NCBI GenBank assembly: GCA_022825855.1
Contig: JAJDWB010000010.1
Coordinates: 186,001-250,000, forward strand
From: Dehalococcoidia bacterium
Lineage (GTDB): Bacteria > Chloroflexota > Dehalococcoidia > Bin125
Length of the DNA: 64,000 nucleotides
Direction: 5' to 3'
Positions 5,371 through 56,991 of the stretch are shown here, piece after piece; positions within the stretch are counted from its first letter, which is position 1, and each line of letters begins with the position of its first letter. The translations under genes were made by a program, and so were the position numbers. The notes beneath the pieces are model-generated. The model searched no databases. It had not been told where the DNA came from and was given only the letters and a program-made list of their open reading frames with translations.

Positions 5371-6102
5371 ATGCCTCAGGCGCTCCCCAATCCAACCCGG
5401 AACCGCCCGCTGCCCGCCGACGACCGCGAGGAGCGCAAGTATCCCCTCCCCGCCGCGCGCGCGAGCCTGCTCACCGCCTGGCTCGACGCCCGCCTGCCAC
5501 GCGACCCCGGCTATCCCCACGGCGTGGTTACGAGCTGCTACTACGACACCCCCCAGCTCGACGCCTACCAGGTATCGGCCGACGGCGAACTCCGCAAGCA
5601 GAAGCTGCGCCTGCGCTGGTACGGCGACCCCATCGACCGCTACGCCGGCGTCTGGCTCGAGATCAAATCGCGCGACGGACTGCGCTCCTCCAAGCGCCGC
5701 CGCCGCTTCCCCGTCTCCGGCGCCGCCAACCCGCTCGGCCTCGTCCTTCCCCGCCGCGACGAGCTCGCATCTTGGCTCGCCGAACTCTCGACCGAAGCCG
5801 CCGCCGTGCTCGACCCCACCCTCGAGCCGACCGCGCTGGTCCGCTACCGGCGCATCCGCTGGCAATCCACCGACCGCCGCGTCCGCGCCGCGCTCGACAC
5901 CGAGGTCCGCGCCGCCGCGCCCCGTGGCGCGCCGATCTGGCTGCCCGTCCCCGACGGCGCCGTGCTCGAGCTCAAGTCCGACGGCGAACTCCCGCCCCAA
6001 CTCTCCCAGCTCGCCCGCCTCGGACTCCGCCGCGCGGCCCACTCCAAGTACGCGCTCGCCGTCGAACGGCTCTACGGCGGCGAGCGGCCCCATGCCCGTT
6101 AG
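5371..6102 (+). CDS. VTC-domain (polyphosphate polymerase-like) protein
   Basis: A 243-residue protein with the tunnel-fold VTC domain over nearly its whole length. Visible landmarks are E-R-K-Y-P near the start, the S-C-Y-Y-D-T-P segment around residue 52, the basic K-Q-K-L-R-L-R-W-Y strand, and W-L-E-I-K-S-R followed by S-S-K-R-R-R-R. Alternating Lys/Arg/Glu residues that line the tunnel are what this family uses to bind nucleotide and polyphosphate. The yeast VTC catalytic subunit makes polyphosphate from ATP; in bacteria the activity of stand-alone domains is mostly untested. The DUF4956 gene follows by 33 bp on the same strand, and CotH diverges 40 bp away. Confidence 0.85.
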   Translation: MPQALPNPTRNRPLPADDREERKYPLPAARASLLTAWLDARLPRDPGYPHGVVTSCYYDTPQLDAYQVSADGELRKQKLRLRWYGDPIDRYAGVWLEIKSRDGLRSSKRRRRFPVSGAANPLGLVLPRRDELASWLAELSTEAAAVLDPTLEPTALVRYRRIRWQSTDRRVRAALDTEVRAAAPRGAPIWLPVPDGAVLELKSDGELPPQLSQLARLGLRRAAHSKYALAVERLYGGERPHAR

Positions 6103-6135: not shown

Positions 6136-6825
6136 ATGCCCATCGTCATGATCGAGTGGCCCGATTGGCTCGGACCCAGGTCGGAGATCCAGTTCGACGA
6201 ATACCTGCTGGCCATGCTCGTCTCGCTGGCCGCCTCCGTCGTCGCCTACGCGCTCTACATCGCGTTCTACCGCGACTGGCAGCGCGGCGCAGGCATCCAC
6301 CGCGTCTTCCTCCTCGCCGGACCCGCGATCACCCTGCTCTTCATCGCCATCCAGTGGTCCCTGCCCCTCTCGCTCGGACTGCTCGGCGCGCTCTCCTTCG
6401 TCCGCTTCCGCACACCGATCAAGGACCCCGCCGAGATCGGCTACCTGCTCGTCGTCATCGCCTCCTCGATCGGCGCGGCCACCTACAACTACGAGCTGAT
6501 CGGCATCCTCTTCGCCATCGTCGCCTTCGTCCTCGTCGCCCAGCGCCTCTTCGCCGGCGCCGGACTCGGCGGACTCGGACTCGGCGCTCGCGACCTGATC
6601 ATCACCATGCCCGCCGACGACTACGCCCAGCACGAAGCTGCCCTGCTCGACTTCCTCCAGTCCAACCTCAGCAGCCTCAAGACCGCCTCCGTCACCCAGA
6701 ACGCCGCCACCGCCAGCCTGCACATCACCTTCCGCCGCTCCCGCTTCCAGGATCGCTGGGCCGAGTTCCGCCAGGAGCTCGAATCCGCCGTCGCCCCCGC
6801 CTCCGTCGAACTCTACGTCGGCTAA
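6136..6825 (+). CDS. DUF4956 domain-containing integral membrane protein
   Basis: A 229-residue protein with about four hydrophobic segments in the first 150 residues (near 27-45, 60-80, 100-118 and 120-140) and a soluble C-terminal half. The core pattern L-S-L-G-L-L-G-A-L-S-F-V-R-F-R-T-P-I-K is the family signature, followed by E-I-G-Y-L-L. The start ATG has GGGAGG 4-9 nt upstream. DUF4956 proteins usually sit beside VTC-fold and CotH genes, as here, so a joint membrane role in phosphate or polyphosphate chemistry is plausible but unproven. The stop codon is only 12 bp from the selenocysteine tRNA. Confidence 0.85.
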   Translation: MPIVMIEWPDWLGPRSEIQFDEYLLAMLVSLAASVVAYALYIAFYRDWQRGAGIHRVFLLAGPAITLLFIAIQWSLPLSLGLLGALSFVRFRTPIKDPAEIGYLLVVIASSIGAATYNYELIGILFAIVAFVLVAQRLFAGAGLGGLGLGARDLIITMPADDYAQHEAALLDFLQSNLSSLKTASVTQNAATASLHITFRRSRFQDRWAEFRQELESAVAPASVELYVG

Positions 6826-6837
6826 GCTCTCCACCAC

Positions 6838-6935
6838 GGGAGCGGAAGGGGACCGGTGTCCTCCACAGTCTTCAAAACTGATGCGGGGCGGTCCGCGCCG
6901 TCTCGGGTGGGTTCGACTCCCATGCGCTCCCGCCA
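6838..6935 (+). tRNA. selC: tRNA-Sec (anticodon TCA)
   Basis: The 98-nt sequence folds as a selenocysteine tRNA. The acceptor GGGAGCG pairs with CGCTCCC (7 bp plus an unpaired eighth position), followed by discriminator G and an encoded CCA at 6933-6935. The D arm has six base pairs (GGGGAC with GTCCTC) closing a CGGT loop, a hallmark of tRNA-Sec. The anticodon loop is CTTCAAA, giving TCA. A long variable arm follows, and the T arm is GTGGG-TTCGACT-CCCAT. The pattern runs parallel to E. coli selC. Long-armed tRNA-Ser is excluded by the anticodon and the 6-bp D stem. The gene begins 13 bp after the DUF4956 stop and may be read from that operon or its own promoter. It implies that the organism decodes UGA as Sec. 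Confidence 0.95.
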
Positions 6936-6978: not shown

Positions 6979-7069
6979 CTCCCTCCGGTCCCCTCTCCCC
7001 GAGGGAGAGGGTTAGGGTGAGGGCCCTCCGCCGCCAGACGTCGGCATCGCGCAGGCGGGGCCATCCGTC
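6979..7069. repeat. Dispersed palindromic repeat, family A, copy 1
   Basis: A REP-like unit whose core is a hairpin of CCCTCTCCC against GGGAGAGGG at 6991-7011, followed by a TTAGGGTGAGGGCCC tail and a block containing CAGACGTCGG, then a GCGGGG segment and CCATCCGTC. The same core and tail recur at 7101-7213, 55979-56040 and 56914-56991. It lies just after the tRNA-Sec gene and could also act as a transcript-end hairpin. Confidence 0.75.
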
Positions 7070-7100: not shown

Positions 7101-7213
7101 TCCCTCCGGTCCCCTCTCCCCGAGGGAGAGGGTGAGAGCCTGCCCCCGCGAAGGCGGGGGGTGAGGGCCCTCCGCCGCCAGACGTCGGCCCCGCGCAGGC
7201 GGGGCCATCCGTC
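7101..7213. repeat. Dispersed palindromic repeat, family A, copy 2
   Basis: A near-identical neighbour of copy 1: the 30-base core at 7102-7131 matches, as does the distal block with CAGACGTCGG and CCATCCGTC. It carries an extra insert, GCCTGCCCCCGCG-AA-GGCGGGGGGTGAGGG, forming a second hairpin. That insert also occurs in copy 4 at 56914-56991. The two tandem copies suggest local duplication. Confidence 0.75.
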
Positions 7214-7440
7214 GCCCCCACAACACTCGACCCCACACCACCCCCTTGACATCCCCGCTCCAACACAGCACACTTGTCCCATCTAGCACCAGTGTGCGAA
7301 TCGAGCGCCGCCATCCCCACCCCAGCCCTCTGCACTCCGATCGCTCCCATCCGCCCGGCACACCAGCCTCGCCCGGCGTCCTCCATCTGCTCCCAAGACT
7401 GTCCGCAAAACCCGCAATCGACCGCCAAAACCACCCCAAT

Positions 7441-7527
7441 ACTGATCAAAATTGATCACCCGGATCGCAGGATCTCCCGTAAAACACTGGGTCTGCGCGC
7501 AAATCAGCCCGCTCAGGAAAATTTCGC
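7441..7527. repeat. Direct repeat R1 with GATCAA-AA-TTGATC palindrome
   Basis: An 87-base segment beginning ACTGATCAAAATTGATC that recurs about 86% identical (counted by eye) at 7633-7719, a 192-base period. Both copies hold a perfect 14-base palindrome and the shared run CCCGTAAAACACTGGGT. The stretch is noticeably richer in A than its surroundings. No convincing gene covers 6936-7774; apart from these repeats and the family A palindromes I see nothing else in that interval. Confidence 0.75.
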
Positions 7528-7632
7528 GCAGAACCTGCCCACTCGCCCCGCAGACCGACCTGGCCCGAAACCTTCCTGTTCTGACCCAAATTGTCCCCGA
7601 AATCCGCTTCAAACCGCAAAAGCGACGCCGAA

Positions 7633-7719
7633 ACTGATCAAAATTGATCGCCCAAATCGCACGATCTCCCGTAAAACACTGGGTTTCCGCGCAAATCGGC
7701 CCGATGAGAAAAAATTCGC
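7633..7719. repeat. Direct repeat R2, second copy of the 7441 unit
   Basis: The second copy of the direct repeat. Similarity extends some 40 bases upstream in weaker form (CCGCAAAA-type runs). A diverged third copy may lie inside the HTH gene at about 56567-56640, where AAATTGATC, ACGATCTCC and CAGCCCG appear in the same order. The forward translation of R2 (K-I-D-R-P-N-R-T-I-S) resembles Q-I-D-P-P-D-L-T-I-S of that protein, so the region could be a remnant of a related gene. Confidence 0.65.
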
Positions 7720-17609: not shown

Positions 17610-18844
17610 TGGCGGACGCCGAGCGTCGCTTCTACCGTGCAGCTCGCGTCGCCAATGCGGCGATGGACGGCTGGCTGCTTGATCATGCGGTCGGCGTCGC
17701 GAGCGGCAAGATCTTCGACGTGCTGCCTGCGGCCGACGCGCCGGTGGCGGAGACGATCGACCTCGGCGACGTCTCCCTGCTGCCCGGACTCGTGGAGGGG
17801 CACACGCACATCCCCTGTCCGCCCCGCGTGGATGCCTTCGACATCATCTCGCAGGAAGAGAACGCGCCGGCGCTGATGCGTGCGGCGCACGCCGTCGGTC
17901 TGGCGCTGCGCAGTGGGATCACAACGATGCGCGACCTGGGATCGAAGAATGAGGTCGTGTTTGCCGTGCGTGATGCGATCGAATCGGGCGTGATTCCCGG
18001 ACCGCGACTGCTGGCGGCGGGCGCGCCGATCACGCGGACGATGGATCACTGCTGGTTCTGGGGCGGCGAGGCCGACACGCCCGAGGCCGTGCGCGCGCAG
18101 GCGCAGCTGACCGTTGACGACGGCGCGGACGTGCTCAAGGTGATGGCTTCGGGCGGCAACTTCACGCCGACCTCGAACCCGCGCGACCGCCAGTATCCGC
18201 CCGAAACGATTCGCGAGATCGTCGGAGCCGGCAAGGCCGGCGGCATTGAGGTCGCCGCGCACACTCACGCCGCCGAAGGCATTCGCGCGGCGGTCGAGGG
18301 AGGCGTCCGGCACCTGATCCACTGCCGCTGGTTGTCGGCCAATCCCGAAGAGGGATTCCGCTACGACCCGCAGCTCGCGCAGCGCATCGCGGACGAGGGC
18401 ATCTGGGTCAATCCCACGATCGGGCTCGGGCTGCTGGCGTCGGAAGCTCGAGAGCAGGGCGACGCGGCGCCGCGGCGCAATCCCAACCTGCAGGGCCCGT
18501 CGCCGCGCGAGCAGGGACTGGAGATTCTGCGCGACATGCGCGATCGGGGCGCCCGTTTTACGTCGGGACTCGACATGGGCATGGCCTATGCCGATTTCAA
18601 CCGGGCCCCAGCCGAAGCGTGGGCCTTCGTCCAGGACGTTGGGCTCACTGAGTGGCAGGCGCTGCGAATCATGACCTGCGACACGGCGAACGCGATCGGC
18701 GTCGGCAGTCAGGTCGGCAAACTCGTCAGAGGCTACGACGCCGACCTTGCCGCCTTTTCCGGAGATCCTGCTGGGAATATCCGCGACCTTGACCGCCCGA
18801 CGTTCGTCATGCAGGGTGGCCGCGTGATCGTTGACGCGACCTAG
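17609..18844 (+). CDS. Metal-dependent amidohydrolase (imidazolonepropionase/prolidase-like)
   Basis: A 411-residue member of the cyclic amidohydrolase superfamily. The first metal motif is L-V-E-G-H-T-H-I-P (His-x-His), later H-T-H-A-A-E-G-I-R-A-A and H-L-I-H-C give further ligands, and the end carries T-A-N-A-I-G-V-G with a G-x-D-A-D-L-A segment. I chose the ATG at 17609, which overlaps the stop of the upstream hydratase by one base; a longer frame would only read through that gene. It converges on the selenoprotein gene, and their stops share CTAG at 18841-18844. Substrate unknown. Confidence 0.86.
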   Translation: MADAERRFYRAARVANAAMDGWLLDHAVGVASGKIFDVLPAADAPVAETIDLGDVSLLPGLVEGHTHIPCPPRVDAFDIISQEENAPALMRAAHAVGLALRSGITTMRDLGSKNEVVFAVRDAIESGVIPGPRLLAAGAPITRTMDHCWFWGGEADTPEAVRAQAQLTVDDGADVLKVMASGGNFTPTSNPRDRQYPPETIREIVGAGKAGGIEVAAHTHAAEGIRAAVEGGVRHLIHCRWLSANPEEGFRYDPQLAQRIADEGIWVNPTIGLGLLASEAREQGDAAPRRNPNLQGPSPREQGLEILRDMRDRGARFTSGLDMGMAYADFNRAPAEAWAFVQDVGLTEWQALRIMTCDTANAIGVGSQVGKLVRGYDADLAAFSGDPAGNIRDLDRPTFVMQGGRVIVDAT

Positions 18845-20349
18845 GGAAACGTCAGCACAATCTCGCGACCCTGCCGCGACTCCAGGTCGAGATGCACAAT
18901 GCGGTGATTGTTCGTGTCGGCGACTAGCAGCGACCTGCCTGGGCCGTGAGTCAGACCGCCCGGTTCGTCGAGTTGGAGGTCGCCGAAGCTGCCGATTGCG
19001 TCTCCGTGGCCTCCGACCAGCGTGTTGACATTCTCCGTCAGCGGGAAGACCTGCTTGATCTTGTGGTTGAAGGTGTCGGCGACGTAGAGCTCGTCGCCGA
19101 CGCGTGCGACATCGAGCGGATGCTGCAGCTTGGCCACTGCGCGGCCGCCGTCGGCGTCGCCGAAATGGAAGAGTCCACCCTGGCCGGTCTTGCCGATGAA
19201 GGTGGTCGTCCGGCCGTCGGGATCCCAGCTCACTTCGCGTACGCCGCTGGACTCGGAGTCGGCAAATGCCAGCCCGCTCGGACCCGGCGACAGACCGGAG
19301 ACCTGGGCCAGCTCCGACTGCATGCGCGGACCGTCGACGATGCCTTCGCGTCCCGAACCGCCCCAGGGCCCGACATAGGAGCCGTCGCCGGCGGCGGCGC
19401 CCAGGGGCATCCGCCAGATCTGATGGATGCCGGCCATGGCGATGTAGAGATCGCCCTCGTGCACGGCGACATCCCAGGGCGAACTGAGGGCCGTTCGAGT
19501 GGCCGGCTCGCCGGCGGGCATCATCCGCGCCTGCTCACCGGTCCCGGCAATCGTCGCGACGCTGCCGTCGCGCAAGTCGATCCGGCGCACTGCGTGATTC
19601 TCGTTGTCAGCGACAAAGACGAAGTCGCCGTAGACCTCGACGCCCTGCGGCTGGTTGAACTGCGCCACGTCCGCCGACCCGTCGCGGAAGCCCGCCTCGG
19701 AACCGCCAACCACCTGCGACACGTTGCCCTCGAGGTCGGAGACGATGATTCGATCGTTGTTGCTGTCCGAAACGACCAGCCGTCCGGAGGTCTCGTCCCA
19801 GGCGACCTTGCCGGGGAACGAGAGGGCGCTGTCGCGGCCGGTCTCGCGGACCAGTCCGAGATCGCGGCGGGTGAGGACCGACTCGGCCTCGTACTCGGCC
19901 AGCCAGCCGTCGATCAAGGGCGCGGCCATGTCCTCGGTCAGCTCGCCCTCGTGGATGCCGATCACATTGCCGCGCGGGTCGATGAAGTAGAGCGTCGGCC
20001 AGGCGCGCGCGCCGAAGGTCTGCCAGTAGCTGAAGTCGGCGTCGTTGAGCACCGGATGCTCAATCCGCAGGCGGAGGATGGCCTGGCGCAGATTCTCGGT
20101 CTCTCGTTCGGTGGGGAACTTGGGCGAGTGGACCGAGACGACCTGCAATGTGTCGGCGTAGCGTCGTTCCAGCTTCCGCAACTGCGGAAGCACGTGCAGA
20201 CAGTTGATTCAAGCGTAGGTCCAGAAGTGCAGGATCAGCAGGCGGCCCCGGAAGTCATCCATGGACATCTCGCGGCCGGTGTTCAGCCAGGTCATCCCGG
20301 CTGGCACGGCGGGCGCGGGGGTCTGTCCGAATGCTCGTGAAGTGGTCAT
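18841..20349 (-). CDS. Probable selenoprotein: thioredoxin-like and NHL-repeat protein (NHLRC2-like) with UxxC active site, in-frame TGA at 20209-20211
   Basis: Read with TGA as Sec this is a 502-residue protein that would otherwise be split in two. Residues 1-47 end W-T-Y-A-Sec47, and the frame continues I-N-C50-L-H-V-L-P-Q, then a complete thioredoxin-like domain (to about 160, with W-P-T-L-Y-F-I-D-P-R-G) and six-bladed NHL repeats (V-S-D-S-N-N-D-R-I and similar). Human NHLRC2 has C-C-I-N-C there, so Sec replaces the first Cys of C-I-N-C. Both halves are in the same frame, no stop other than TGA occurs, and a strong hairpin follows the TGA. A tRNA-Sec gene lies in the same window. The start is ATG 20347-20349. 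It follows the PQQ-type sugar dehydrogenase by 28 bp. Probably a thiol/selenol redox protein; partner unknown. The alternative, a TGA mutation in a Cys gene, cannot be excluded without reads. Confidence 0.85.
20172..20191 (-). promoter_or_regulatory. Candidate bacterial SECIS hairpin
   Basis: Read on the minus strand, an 8-bp perfect stem (GCTTCCGC with GCGGAAGC) closes an AGTT tetraloop. The loop starts 25 nt after the TGA, within the usual 16-37 nt window for bacterial SECIS, and has G at the second loop position. SelB recognises such loops in E. coli. There is no bulged U in the stem, so recognition is inferred. Confidence 0.7.
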
Positions 20350-55978: not shown

Positions 55979-56040
55979 TCCCTCTCCCTCTGGGAGAGGG
56001 CTGGGGTGAGGGGCCGGCGTAGGCCGGGTGAGGGCCCTCG
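55979..56040. repeat. Dispersed palindromic repeat, family A, copy 3
   Basis: A CCCTCTCCCTCTGGGAGAGGG hairpin with tail GGGGTGAGGGGCC and a second GCCGGCGTAGGCCGG hairpin. Placed between the large secreted protein and the HTH gene; the preceding bases at 55923-55946 are three tandem CCACACCG units. Confidence 0.65.
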
Positions 56041-56913: not shown

Positions 56914-56991
56914 GGTCCCCTCTCCCTCTCGGAGAGGGTTAGAGCCTGCCCCCGCGTAGGCGGGGGGTGAGGGCCCTCCGCGGTGGCCGGG
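56914..56991. repeat. Dispersed palindromic repeat, family A, copy 4
   Basis: Starts with the CCCTCTCCCTCTCGGAGAGGG hairpin and carries the GCCTGCCCCCGCG-TA-GGCGGGGGGTGAGGG insert found in copy 2 at 7101-7213. It lies just before the alpha/beta hydrolase gene. Confidence 0.7.

Follow-up and report, generated by a model that had tools for sequence, protein, structure and literature searches.

A selenocysteine tRNA gene and a predicted thioredoxin-NHL selenoprotein in a sponge- and coral-associated lineage of Dehalococcoidia

A tRNA gene at positions 6838-6935 (+) of a 64-kb stretch of Dehalococcoidia DNA (the window, on contig C17 of the assembly) raises the question whether it encodes a selenocysteine tRNA (tRNA-Sec, selC) that is still in use, and for which proteins. 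Our analysis indicates that it is almost certainly the single working selC of a Sec-decoding Dehalococcoidia bacterium, serving at least four mRNAs, one of them encoded within the window.

ARAGORN reported one tRNA in the 64-kb window, a tRNA-SeC at 6838-6935 (+) with anticodon TCA. The Rfam model RF01852, which has a gathering score of 47 bits, matched 6838-6931 over its full length (model positions 1-91) with 70.2 bits and an E-value of 2.6e-12, and the last four bases, GCCA at 6932-6935, provide the G73 discriminator and an encoded CCA. The D arm (GGGGAC-CGGU-GUCCUC) forms a 6-bp stem with a 4-nt loop, the T stem consists of 5 pairs, and a long variable arm is visible in the Rfam alignment; in all these traits, as in the UCA anticodon, G73 and CCA, the molecule is like the bacterial tRNA-Sec of RF01852. 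Single-strand RNA folding of the gene did not recover the cloverleaf, and the stems were compared with those of 29 class relatives. The score of 70 bits, taken together with UCA, the 6-bp D stem, the 4-nt D loop, G73 and the encoded CCA, places the tRNA-Sec type beyond doubt, in agreement with the original prediction of a selenocysteine tRNA at this position. It is the sole RF01852 match above the cut-off in its own genome, where the next best reach at most 45 bits and three matches at 43-45 bits proved to be tRNA-Ser or tRNA-Leu when tested. On these features we regard the gene as a genuine bacterial tRNA-Sec and as the lone true one in the genome.

Textbook bacterial tRNA-Sec has a 13-pair acceptor/T stack of 8+5 pairs. 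Here, all 8 + 5 positions are present, with a G.G mismatch at the eighth acceptor pair (6845 with 6924) and with A.A and C.U at the outer end of the anticodon stem, so that the tRNA departs somewhat from the 8+5 form. Among 30 class tRNA-Sec compared (own included), acceptor pair 8 is G.G in 20 and non-standard in 24, and the G-U pair adjoining it is kept in 24; G.G at pair 8 was found too in some tRNA-Sec of Planctomycetota and Anaerolineae. The equivalent position in E. coli is occupied not by G.G but by C7-G66, a SelB identity element that helps to reject EF-Tu, and the G-U pair beside it is another part of this SelB/EF-Tu determinant (PMC9976931). Bacterial tRNA-Sec of a 7+5 (12 bp) form are on record (PMC5330540); the present tRNA resembles them in having effectively seven standard acceptor pairs, whereas those forms are short of a residue or have a bulge and this one retains all eight positions with the eighth mismatched. 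As such deviations in the acceptor/T stack are already known, the G.G pair is a mildly unusual variation worth noting and no new class of tRNA-Sec. A mismatch this widespread at the pair that serves as SelB/EF-Tu determinant in E. coli raises a minor question about how tRNA-Sec is recognised, one that can be put to the test.

For the selenocysteine machinery, the whole genome (a draft of 2.82 Mb in 22 contigs, 96% complete, with an estimated contamination of 4.4%) was searched, and all three genes scored above their curated cut-offs: selA on contig C3 (513 bits), selB on contig C22 (344 bits) and selD on contig C13 (352 bits). The Sec codon of selD is the only interruption in their frames. None of the three lies in the 64-kb window, which confirms the earlier observation that the tRNA has no selA, selB or selD nearby; their absence from the genome as a whole had been proposed as a refutation of the tRNA-Sec reading, and this refutation fails, since SelA, SelB and SelD are all encoded.

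The gene served within the window lies about 12 kb from the tRNA, at 18841-20349 (-), and would encode a selenoprotein of 502 residues of the thioredoxin-NHL, NHLRC2/SOQ1 type with Sec at residue 47 (U47), from an in-frame UGA at 20209-20211 (-) read as Sec (WTYA-U-INC). Pfam assigns Thioredoxin_8 and NHL domains to the read-through product, and phmmer aligns it nearly end to end with Arabidopsis SOQ1 (7djj; E 1.5e-101, residues 10-498) and with human NHLRC2 (6gc1; E 1.4e-98, residues 12-493). It shares with both the thioredoxin-like domain, a site of the CCINC type and the NHL propeller, and differs from them in having neither the HAD domain nor the C-terminal domain and in the site itself: the UGA falls on the first Cys of the CxxC motif, so that WTYAUINC stands here against WTYCCINC in SOQ1, with Sec replacing the first Cys of CxxC and Ala the preceding Cys of CCINC. 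AlphaFold, run on the single sequence, gave a poor model of the protein (pLDDT 44). Under translation table 11 the gene is reduced to an ORF at 18841-20193 that starts at 20193, and the annotation thereby strips the protein of its entire active site. Standard annotation will truncate the selenoproteins of this lineage likewise, as the lineage decodes UGA as Sec, which the tRNA confirms.

The UGA is followed after 18 nt by a putative bacterial SECIS hairpin, CUUCCGC-AGUU-GCGGAAG, at 20173-20190 (-). Across 21 different segments of TGA forms, 96.6% of the cells are paired, and both partners have changed in three of the seven pairs; none of 500 shuffles, which ignore relatedness, was as good, and a sliding control agreed with them, the two-sided changes coming from distant members. 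No such hairpin is present in the Cys homologues of the NHL protein. PQLR is the usual reading of the TGA forms, whereas an acidic residue takes the place of Q in most Cys forms, a difference that a constraint of the RNA on the protein would produce.

A competing view of this codon takes the UGA at 20209-20211 for a mutation that breaks the frame, or UGA for a codon reassigned genome-wide, either of which would leave the UxxC gene uninformative on selenocysteine; table 11 does read the UGA as a stop. We consider this highly improbable, because TGA occupies the same codon in every family homologue that is readable there, over protein identities of 59-99%, and the hairpin accompanies the TGA forms only. 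A scan of the window for coding-like TGA codons followed by a hairpin left 20211 (-) as the only one with a strong SECIS, and further selenoprotein genes in the window were rejected on this result. Genome-wide reassignment was rejected separately: TGA ends 7 of the 20 ORFs listed for the window, so UGA is still a stop. The Sec reading of the codon at 20209-20211 (-) is thus convincing at the level of sequence, and the earlier suggestion that the UxxC gene at 20 kb strengthens the case for selenocysteine holds, given the conserved TGA at the CxxC Cys and the covarying SECIS.

It is also very improbable that the tRNA is a decayed relic from which the lineage no longer makes selenoproteins. Decay could account for the mismatched bases of acceptor pair 8 and of the anticodon stem, and for the location of selC apart from selA and selB; against it, the pair-8 G.G is common to 20 of the 30 class tRNAs and, as a trait of most class relatives, does not point to local decay, the frames of selA, selB and selD are intact save for the Sec codon of selD, and both the SECIS hairpin and the UGA are kept under selection. 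That a UGA suppressor, or a tRNA for Ser or Leu with its long arm, was mis-scored as tRNA-Sec is vanishingly improbable, for although RF01852 accepts tRNA-Ser of other genomes near its cut-off (48.6 and 49.4 bits), the present match has 70.2 bits, UCA, a 6-bp D stem with a 4-nt loop and G73, and stands in a genome with complete sel machinery.

The DNA itself shows the tRNA, selA, selB and selD, TGA codons in frame and the conserved SECIS of the NHL gene, and decoding by the working selC would be expected to follow the established bacterial pathway: SerRS would charge the tRNA-Sec with serine, SelA would convert the seryl-tRNA to Sec-tRNA with selenophosphate from SelD, and SelB would carry the Sec-tRNA to UGA codons with a SECIS hairpin downstream. 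The NHL protein, with UINC as its active site, would then be a thioredoxin-NHL oxidoreductase.

At least four selenoproteins are predicted for the genome, a lower bound as the list was derived from family searches: SelD, a peroxiredoxin (TGGU), an AhpD-like protein (CFYU) and the NHL protein (UINC). In selD, the in-frame TGA lies in GGUGSK, an established Sec position of SelD proteins; in the peroxiredoxin gene it lies in TGGU, a known Sec site as well, and is accompanied by a strong hairpin. The AhpD/CMD-like gene (L191, C5:105238-105399 (-)) has CFYU, a hairpin after the TGA and a weak Pfam match, and is a probable fourth selenoprotein. Formate dehydrogenase is the usual selenoprotein; three Molybdop_Fe4S4 genes were considered for this role and rejected, none having a TGA in the matched domain. 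A SelW-type gene is present and was rejected in the same way, with no Sec/TGA in the matched domain.

While the tRNA-Sec and its machinery are mostly ordinary, the Sec form of the NHL protein is the modestly new part. Beyond the family, the TGA form occurs in two further Dehalococcoidia (L068, L071), a class relative (L146), a member of the Anaerolineales (L079) and one of the Gemmatimonadota (L087); the remaining NHL homologues have Cys at the site, except for one with Ser (L114). When 69 NHL homologues were placed on a tree, the rows with Sec called for 4 changes; this figure is compatible with one origin and does not count independent gains. An inventory of 119 selenoprotein families from 2026 has no NHL, NHLRC2 or SOQ1 entry (PMC13188914), the other selenium and selenoprotein papers examined make no mention of NHL, and no relevant report of a selenoprotein with an NHL domain was found in the open-access literature, an earlier report elsewhere being possible. 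The protein may be covered by a broad entry of that inventory such as 'redoxin family'. It shares UxxC, the thioredoxin fold and a SECIS right after the UGA with the UxxC Prx-like, redoxin and TlpA selenoproteins listed there (Table 1, PMC13188914), and differs from them in the fused NHL propeller. We think it reasonably likely, from the homologues compared, that the NHLRC2/SOQ1-type protein has a true Sec form, unlisted as a selenoprotein family, which is conserved throughout one sponge-/coral-associated family of Dehalococcoidia and occurs sporadically among other Dehalococcoidia, Anaerolineales and Gemmatimonadota. This form would then be a naturally occurring Sec variant of a protein that has in human NHLRC2 an essential orthologue of unknown function. 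Human NHLRC2 has the CCINC motif (PMC6107167), and whether its CxxC-type site works as a redox site is unsettled (PMC6107167); a Sec form within the NHLRC2/SOQ1 family argues that the CxxC-type site of this family does serve in redox chemistry.

The original prediction had treated tRNA-Sec as rare, which does not hold for this group. With RF01852 matches of at least 66 bits counted, tRNA-Sec was present in 50 of the 80 genomes searched (own included), the named records in this sample being Dehalococcoidia/Chloroflexota assemblies. A raw tally of 62 genomes takes in matches near 50 bits, and those tested were tRNA-Ser. RF01852 is permissive in this range: tRNA-Ser of two other genomes, identified as such by ARAGORN, pass at 48.6 and 49.4 bits. 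Simple tallies therefore overcount tRNA-Sec, because the gathering score of 47 admits tRNA-Ser near 49 bits. The lineage is one of sponge- and coral-associated Dehalococcoidia, the origin of several members being taken partly from isolate names; the sponge Aplysina aerophoba is the source of bin125 (MPNM01), and SelA and SelB had already been reported in most sponge symbiont bins and as missing from most close references (PMC5649159). Where tRNA-Sec and the Sec-NHL gene share a contig (12 genomes), they are 12-20 kb apart. Three family members with the Sec-NHL gene, G003, G013 and G019, yielded no tRNA-Sec from their incomplete assemblies; selA was detected in each of the seven Sec-NHL genomes tested, five of which showed no tRNA-Sec (these three and those of L071 and L087).

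Upstream of the tRNA lie a VTC-domain protein gene at 5371-6102 (+) (PF09359, 90.6 bits) and a DUF4956 membrane protein gene at 6136-6825 (+) (PF16316, 31.9 bits; cut-off 30.6). As noted originally, the tRNA begins 13 bp after the DUF4956 stop: 12 bp lie between the end of the coding sequence at 6825 and the tRNA, whose first base is the 13th. The same VTC and DUF4956 genes precede tRNA-Sec in all seven loci of the genus examined (own included), the gap being 22 bp at one of them and 12 bp at the other six; the surroundings of tRNA-Sec in the remaining 23 class loci showed neither a DUF4956 nor a VTC homologue. The membrane-protein context is no functional clue; the gene order is genus-level synteny, from which no functional link can be argued. 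Since the tRNA region yielded no promoter-like site, co-transcription of the tRNA with VTC-DUF4956 is plausible. Directly downstream of the tRNA, a palindrome, CCCTCTCCCCGAGGGAGAGGG, was noted as a REP-like intergenic element that might serve as a transcript end; it has two exact and two near copies in the window, at 6991-7011 (+), 7112-7132 (+), 55980-56000 (-) and 56918-56938 (-), with none expected by chance. The apparently non-coding gap further downstream holds two near-identical stretches, at 7430-7500 and 7610-7690, around ctgatcaaaattgatc ... atctcccgtaaaacactgggt.
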